Positions 1 through 1,643 of a stretch of DNA of 45,705 bases are shown piece after piece. The translations under genes were made by a program, and so were the position numbers. Origin of the DNA: Chloroflexota bacterium (lineage in GTDB: Bacteria; Chloroflexota; Limnocylindria; P2-11E); the NCBI GenBank assembly GCA_005889275.1, contig VBFI01000052.1, positions 1-45,705 on the forward strand, written 5' to 3'. Each line of letters opens with the position of its first letter. Within the stretch, counting starts at the first letter, position 1. Below the pieces are notes generated by a model that was not told where the DNA came from, searched no databases, and saw only the letters and a program-made list of their open reading frames with translations.

Positions 1-335
1 GGCTGAGCCATCGGGCGGGGAGCCGACGATCCGAGAGCCGGGAGGCCGTCGTGCTCGCGGGGCCCCTGGTAACGCGAGACGCTCGCGCATGGAGGTCACT
101 TAACCCCGCTGCGCCGCCGACCTCCCGTCTCTTGTCTCGAGCAGCTCTTCAAGGGATGCCCTGATGCTTCAGGGCTGAGCGATCGGGCCTGGGCCGACGA
201 TCCGAGAGCGGATCCGAGTGGGAGACGAGAGGTGGGAGGTCGGCGGCGCAGCGGGGTGCGGAACATCCATGCGCTCGCGTCTCGCGTTAGCCGGGGCCCC
301 GCGAGCACGACGGCCTCCCGGCTCTCGTCTCGGTC
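1..335. repeat. Compound repeat: ~108-nt imperfect inverted repeat (arms about 31-139 and 221-328) plus a ~38-nt direct repeat (1-40 vs 172-210)
   Basis: Arm 31-139 (ccgagagccgggaggccgtcgtgctcgcggggcccc...ccccgctgcgccgccgacctccc) matches the reverse complement of 221-328 at high identity. ggctgagccatcgggcggggagccgacgatccgagagc recurs as ggctgagcgatcgggcctgggccgacgatccgagagc. A gccctga-tgct-tcagggc hairpin (158-175) sits near the centre. Confidence 0.9.
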
Positions 336-509
336 ACGATCGTCGTGATCACGAGCTTGGCACGGCTCTCCCATCGGCCTGAGGTCTGAGTCACAGATTG
401 TGCTCGCCAAACGTTGAGCCTGCGGGATATAGTCACGACGCGAACTGAATAGCCATGAGCGCACCGCTAGGGGAGGGGCAGCGGCATGGACATCATGGAG
501 GCTTGACCC

Positions 510-1643
510 ATGCCCCTCCGAAGCGACATAGAGAACTTCGCGCTCATTAAGGTCGTCGGCGTCGGCGGCGGTGGATCCAACGCGGTAAACCGGATGATCC
601 GCGCCGAGCTCCTCGGTGTGGAGTTCATCGCGGTCAACACCGATGCCCAGGCCCTGCTCCTCTCGGACGCGCCGCACAAGATCCGCATCGGCGACAAGGT
701 GACGAAGGGCCTCGGCTCGGGAGCCGACCCGACGGTCGGCCGAAAGTCCGCCGAGGACGACAGCGAGAAGCTCTACGAGGCCCTGAAGGAAGCGGACATG
801 GTGTTCGTGACCGCCGGCATGGGCGGCGGGACCGGCACCGGAGCCGCCCCGATCATCGCCGAGATCGCCAAGGACGTCGGCGCCCTCACCGTCGCCGTCG
901 TCACGAAGCCGTTCAGCTTCGAGGGCGCCAAGCGGAGGCTCCTCGCCGAGCAGGGCATCGCCGAGCTCGTCGACAAGGTCGACACGCTCATCACCATCCC
1001 CAACGATCGGCTGCTCCAGGTGGTCGAGAAGCGGACGAGCATGGTGGACGCGTTCCGGATCGTCGATGACGTGCTCCGGCAAGGCGTCCAGGGCATCAGC
1101 GACCTCATCACCGTCCCGGGGCTCATCAATCTCGACTTCGCGGACGTGAAAACGATCATGACGAACGCCGGCTCGGCGCTCATGGGGATCGGGCACGGTT
1201 CAGGCGAGACCCGCGCCGCGGAAGCCGCGCGCCAGGCCATCATGTCGCCGCTCCTCGAGCAGTCGATCGACGGCGCGCGCGGTGTCCTCTTCACGATCAC
1301 CGGCGGTCCGGATCTCACGCTCTTCGAGGTGAACGAGGCCGCGGAGATCATCCACGCGGCGGCGGACCCTGAGGCGAACATCATCTTCGGTGCGGTGATC
1401 GACGAACGGATGGGCGGTGAGGTGAAGATCTCCGTTATCGCCACCGCGTTCGAGCAGGCTCGGGCGATTCGCAAGCTGGAAGGACCGATGTACAAGCGCC
1501 AGGCGCCCTCGGTCGAGCAGCGCTCGGCACCGGCGACGGCGGTCGCGACGGCGCCGGCTGCTTCAGCACCGCACAAGGTCGATGAGCCGAAGAAGTTCGA
1601 GGCGGACGATCTCGAAGTCCCAAGCTTCCTGAGACGCCGTTGA
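510..1643 (+). CDS. ftsZ: Cell division protein FtsZ
   Basis: Tubulin-type GGGTGTG motif ([11 protein letters not shown]), N-terminal [15 protein letters not shown]-terminal peptide [17 protein letters not shown] 9 nt upstream of ATG. Confidence 0.98.

Follow-up and report, generated by a model that had tools for sequence, protein, structure and literature searches.

The window, by which we mean the whole stretch of DNA that was analysed (45,705 nucleotides, the entire contig C156 of a Chloroflexota bacterium), opens a short distance upstream of ftsZ, which occupies positions 510–1643 of the plus strand and is assigned by the Pfam families Tubulin and FtsZ_C. The gene is preceded by a conserved promoter and leader region (388–509, plus strand) that is found in relatives with or without the element described below, and the region upstream of that leader (1–345) is taken up by a large compound repeat. 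Position 1 is the end of a contig, a point that the preliminary description had marked for checking. The contig that bears ftsA (C155) breaks off within that gene, at approximately residue 334 of 415, and no overlap was seen between its end and the start of C156.

The repeat comprises two inverted arms, at 32–138 and 222–328, that are ∼88–90% complementary, bearing out the ∼108-nt arms that had been placed at 31–139 and 221–328 in the preliminary description. Two blocks make up this inverted repeat (27–96 with 263–332, 70 nt and 90% complementary; 103–138 with 222–257, 36 nt and 92% complementary), and a local alignment of 32–138 against the reverse complement of 222–328 matches at approximately 94 of 107 positions, with one 1-nt gap. 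Superimposed on the inverted arms is a direct repeat: nucleotides 1–38 (GGCTGAGCCATCGGGCGGGGAGCCGACGATCCGAGAGC, plus strand), truncated by the contig end, recur in the same orientation at 173–210 with a few mismatches and small gaps. The spacer also carries a hairpin of its own (GCCCTGA-tgct-TCAGGGC; 158–175, plus strand), identified by reading of the sequence and by folding; both it and the second copy of the window's start had been recognised from the outset. The predicted RNA fold of 1–345 has a minimum free energy of −274.7 kcal/mol, against −172.2 ± 5.8 kcal/mol for dinucleotide shuffles (z = −17.6), and among the inverted repeats of the 45.7-kb window it is far the strongest, with no other coming close. 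We found no credible gene overlapping 1–387; the sole long ORF in that region (96–1196, minus strand) runs antisense to ftsZ and matches no Pfam family, in agreement with the earlier statement that no coding ORF explains the repeat.

Each arm proved to be one copy of an imperfect palindrome of ∼100–140 nt. Copy A lies on the minus strand at 24–143 (covariance model score 92.5 bits, E = 3.6e-16) and copy B on the plus strand at 217–335 (86.2 bits, E = 5.9e-15), the E-values of the model being rough; the first copy of the direct repeat reads into element A and the second lies 5' of element B. In copy A the outer stem arms span ∼29–138 and the conserved core, located by its pattern on the minus strand, spans 50–114. 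In copy B the outer stem arms, given by its own inverted repeat, are 222–256 and 297–331, with the core at 246–309 of the plus strand, such that arm B (222–331) is by itself an imperfect palindrome. The two copies are one another's nearest relatives (85%), and their arms differ at ∼13 of 107 positions.

The conserved core of the element reads GCGCARYGGG...CCCGYGAGCACG. Comparison with arm B indicated that this core (as GCGCARCGGG ... CCCGYGAGCACG) recurs within hairpins at several places of genomes of the same genus. We scanned a public genome collection for the core pattern and then tested the flanks of each match for pairing, which divided the matches sharply into two groups. Among the core matches listed, at least 21 loci have strong stems (z ≤ −2.9), and the structured loci among them belong only to the window, to genus relatives or to public Chloroflexi CF_ MAGs. 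Core matches elsewhere among those listed, spread over many phyla, were set aside as chance occurrences whose flanks form no such stem, and two matches on viral contigs were absent from the top structured loci among the matches listed. The covariance model returned 57 hits in the 28 family genomes searched, approximately 56 of which are credible once an own-genome hit (C100:39007–39106, 37 bits) is removed; that hit lacks the core, falls within a coding region and was treated as chance. Hits were found in 10 of the 11 genomes of the window's genus and in three of five genomes of one sister genus; the model gave no hits in the other genera of the family, and no further hits across the rest of the class (177 genomes) or in a 400-genome sample of the phylum.

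All of these genomes are incomplete MAG assemblies, among which copy number goes down to 0–2 in some, and in the window's own genome we found two intact copies only (A and B), together with a half-copy remnant in purL. The multi-copy element proposed in the preliminary description is thus upheld within the genus and not within the genome itself. A BLAST-like DNA search with the 345-bp repeat, the suggested check on copy number, returned only the query itself in the own genome and mostly the ftsZ leader in relatives, and weak distant matches (G053, G029 and G058) were dropped after reading as ordinary-looking sequence. Rfam searches of the window and the type II copies, at gathering and permissive thresholds, gave tRNAs and chance matches only, and a literature search that misses most subscription papers found no published description of the hairpin family. 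The best reading is that the element constitutes a new palindromic repeat family of the RPE/REP-like kind, and we consider it very probable that the window feature represents copies A (minus strand) and B (plus strand) of a dispersed, genus-restricted palindrome of the RPE, REP or MITE kind situated between ftsA and the ftsZ promoter. The BIME-like palindrome or non-autonomous element first suggested comes close to this: each arm belongs to a family of dispersed palindromes, and the opposite orientation of the pair produces a BIME-like layout.

Relatives hold copies both just past stop codons and in frame within genes (a codon-score script was used to call genes, and the calls were then read by eye). 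Approximately 21 copies lie within reading frames, the hosts being purL, dnaE, a DinG-like helicase, a fused CoA-transferase III, a membrane protein and an ABC-F-like protein; purL (AIRS domains), the CoA-transferase (CoA_transf_3) and the helicase were confirmed by Pfam, and the dnaE, membrane protein and ABC-F-like hosts were identified by reading. The inserts are read in more than one frame and from either strand (for example as GAVGAAG...KGPASTT, RGAAG...RRDPRARE, SAAQRGAE...QGPREHE or VLAGP), and the host frames remain open across them with the single exception of dnaE in G007, where the linker (L290) has one in-frame TGA immediately 5' of the element, which may reflect a sequencing error, a split gene or decay. 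Most of the intergenic copies lie 2–80 nt past a stop codon, often between convergent genes.

The same sites are found in different states in different species. The linker in purL is empty in G010, filled in the sense orientation in G001, G003, G004, G006 and G008, filled in the inverted orientation in G002 and G009 and, in the genome of the window itself, reduced to a remnant of the 5' half; sequence divergence between empty and filled sites blurs the exact boundaries of the element. Between ftsA and ftsZ, G003 and G010 have no element, G006 and G001 have a single copy each, G002 keeps a 5'-half remnant and the window has two copies. Species also differ in the orientation of the element at dnaE and at mobA-xdhC, and some sites hold different subtypes in different species. 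Within G007, three or four sites carry copies that are 82–90% identical to one another (∼90% for dinG, dnaE and the MSLLERY site) and unlike those found at the same sites in other species. Copies at one site can therefore differ in orientation or subtype, and copies can be lost or halved; together with the likeness among copies within G007, these site states suggest that the sites are old and that their contents have been overwritten and flipped.

The ftsA–ftsZ gap differs in other ways in three further genomes. In G005 (L054) and G004 (L059) an extra small ORF replaces the hairpin, reading SYDLYFWK and SYDLYLWK, respectively, and in G009 (L053) a different, near-perfect hairpin of ∼95 nt, without the conserved core, lies just upstream of ftsZ.

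The stems of the element vary between copies and yet remain paired, and the internal-loop core is conserved. RNAalifold analysis of 20 copies gave 20 pairs, 12 of them with compensatory double changes. Across 59 model-aligned matches (two of which are opposite-strand echoes), 96.2% of cells are paired, as compared to 78.8% after shuffling, and double changes occur in 15 of the 20 pairs, so that the covariation check proposed at the outset came out strongly positive. Cells with double changes number 186, against 47 in shuffled alignments and at most 30 for slid structures, and none of 500 shuffles reached any observed pairing value. The covariance-model alignment is fitted to the structure, which biases these pair counts towards it; the MAFFT-only alignment used as input to RNAalifold displays the same compensatory pattern. 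At the ruvC–ruvA site the stems are very different in three species, each being complementary to itself.

The mismatches are strand-asymmetric. For STRANDEDNESS, the model's pairs contain 45 core-strand G-U pairs versus four A-C mispairs, much of this excess stemming from two columns common by descent; a scoring-neutral comparison of the arms gives a modest excess (61 versus 38). In that comparison purine–purine mismatches greatly outnumber the corresponding mismatches of the opposite strand (G-A/A-G 172 versus C-T/T-C 21; G-G 49 versus C-C 22). Conserved internal loops in a single folded strand would be expected to produce such an asymmetry, making a role of the core strand as RNA or as single-stranded DNA plausible, with the data fitting either.

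The evidence points both ways as to what keeps the stems paired, selection at the RNA level or correction of one DNA arm from the other. A DNA mechanism would rewrite one arm from its partner while DNA is replicated or breaks are repaired, through template switching or gene conversion that could involve the two arms or separate copies and would sometimes flip the interior, and we regard it as a serious possibility, if not a probable one. The flips of orientation at purL, dnaE, mobA-xdhC and other sites argue for it, as do the differing subtypes at single sites, the within-genome similarity in G007 and the scarcity of one-sided relative to two-sided changes; symmetric correction of the arms, however, would not give strand-asymmetric mismatches or preserve internal loops.

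Those same features are accommodated by a functional structured RNA family of the genus, cis-regulatory or processed, in which the internal loop would serve as a binding or processing site and selection on the RNA would keep the stems paired. Strong covariation and a core that is invariant across diverged copies are consistent with it, as are the G-U count and the excess of purine–purine mismatches, which would mark strand-specific internal loops. We nevertheless think it rather unlikely, given that both orientations occur at one site, that copies sit inside the coding frames of unrelated proteins and are readily lost or halved, that some genomes have as few as 0–2, and that the family has no Rfam match; moreover, the alignment-neutral G-U excess is modest, and much of the larger excess traces to the two columns that the copies have inherited in common.

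The preliminary description had offered a long structured leader for ftsZ as another reading. The position of the repeat upstream of that gene would fit such a leader, or a terminator or attenuator serving ftsZ alone, but all of these are very improbable. The repeat lies upstream of the conserved promoter-like site of ftsZ (404–433, with a TATAGT −10-like hexamer ending at 433) and of the leader that continues to 509, both of which are conserved in relatives; no T-tract, as expected of an intrinsic terminator, was found after the hairpin of either window copy; the hairpin is missing there from two genomes of the same genus, G003 and G010; and the same element stands beside or within unrelated genes. 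An inverted duplication generated at the contig end by the assembler or by whole-genome amplification, an artefact that the preliminary description had also named and that the location at a contig end would fit, is likewise very improbable, since an assembler fold-back would yield near-identical arms whereas these differ at ∼13 positions and have different flanks, and since related single copies occupy the same gap in G006 and G001, with many others elsewhere.

The ftsZ leader itself contains a strongly conserved motif (GCGCACCGCTAGGGGAGGGGCAGCGGCATGG) at 430–509 across the family, with apparent compensatory changes, such as CCATG/CATGG becoming CGATG/CATCG in G015; Rfam gave no match for that interval. 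It is possible that 430–509 forms a structured ftsZ leader.

Returning to the dispersed palindrome as the preferred reading, the arrangement in the window probably arose by tandem duplication of a unit consisting of the direct repeat and the element, after which the interior of one copy would have been inverted through its own complementary arms, by recombination or template switching. These two steps would account for both the direct repeat and the inverted arms, and the orientation differences at purL, dnaE and mobA-xdhC in relatives offer a parallel for the flip. The duplication is visible for the left flank, as the direct repeat, and not for the right flank, for which reason this sequence of events stays a proposal. 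G007 has two tandem copies in the same orientation (L293, 2001–2276), an arrangement that parallels the double copy of the window as it would have stood before a flip.

The conserved entity is presumably a DNA or RNA hairpin rather than a protein, and the element may spread or be overwritten as a non-autonomous sequence. RAYT-driven mobility was rejected because the genus is without a Y1 (RAYT-type) transposase: PF01797 was found in none of its 11 genomes, all incomplete MAGs, compared to five of 14 in control rings. A more far-reaching model, which we judge unlikely, would have fixed docking sites, both intergenic and within essential genes (dnaE and purL among them), occupied by self-correcting palindromes whose arms rewrite one another and whose interiors flip, each species overwriting its sites with the version it currently has, in a concerted evolution of coding hairpins that hairpin breakage and repair would drive with no dedicated transposase. 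Intergenic copies would most likely act as a passive 3'-end hairpin of the upstream transcript, affecting its stability or read-through. The window pair would lie in the expected 3' region of the ftsA transcript, with ftsZ retaining its own promoter downstream, and any effect on ftsZ would then be exerted on read-through from ftsA.

Among the known repeats closest to the element are the Rickettsia palindromic elements (RPEs), hairpin repeats of 105–146 nt that are found in intergenic regions or as in-frame fusions in unrelated conserved protein genes (PMC2229807; PMC10969869). The element resembles them and their Wolbachia counterparts in length (∼100–140 nt), and resembles RPEs in that copies occur between genes as well as in frame within conserved genes for proteins, a likeness drawn by description between different bacteria and different sequences. 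Unlike the RPEs, which encode one conserved peptide (PMC10969869), it is read in several frames and on both strands, and it displays compensatory stem differences between copies and an orientation that varies between species at one site. GTAG/CGTC REPs and BIMEs are palindromic units that lie for the most part 3' of coding regions and between convergent genes. Their subfamilies have alternative residues at complementary stem positions, they form dimers of opposite orientation, and some of their copies are intragenic, often within genes for replication and repair (PMC3733652). The element shares with the REPs its mostly downstream placement and alternative complementary stem residues; it differs in being three to five times longer than their 20–40 bp, in having its conserved part in an internal-loop core and not in a tagged foot, and in belonging to a genus without the Y1/RAYT transposase that accompanies REPs in their genomes. 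A terminal GTAG/CGTC tag is not constant among the copies: GTAG or CTAC is present near the ends of 1–4 of 56, and GACG, even at the fixed position where it is most frequent, in only 12 of 56. The MITE-like repeats of bacteria (ERIC/IRU, NEMIS/Correia, YPAL and others), which measure 100–170 nt, give transcripts with long stem-loops and are intergenic apart from some in-frame fusions (PMC2229807), are similar in size range, long stem-loops and placement. In contrast to those repeats, the element has a central core and variable termini and apparently lacks a conserved terminal inverted-repeat sequence, its arms being complementary within each copy and different in sequence between copies. We therefore do not assign it to the RPEs (it has no single conserved peptide, and the likeness is one of description), to the GTAG/CGTC REPs or to any Rfam family.

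The new family thus combines the habit of RPEs (in-frame insertion) with that of REPs (placement downstream of genes and alternative complementary stem residues). The best-known examples of palindromes that code for protein come from Rickettsia and Wolbachia, whose genomes are reduced and intracellular; a comparable family, with ∼56 copies in 13 genomes, is now found in free-living soil Chloroflexota, within genes of replication and purine synthesis. The empty, filled, flipped and half-deleted states of its shared sites provide a natural experiment on how in-frame palindromes originate, stay paired and spread with no visible transposase.
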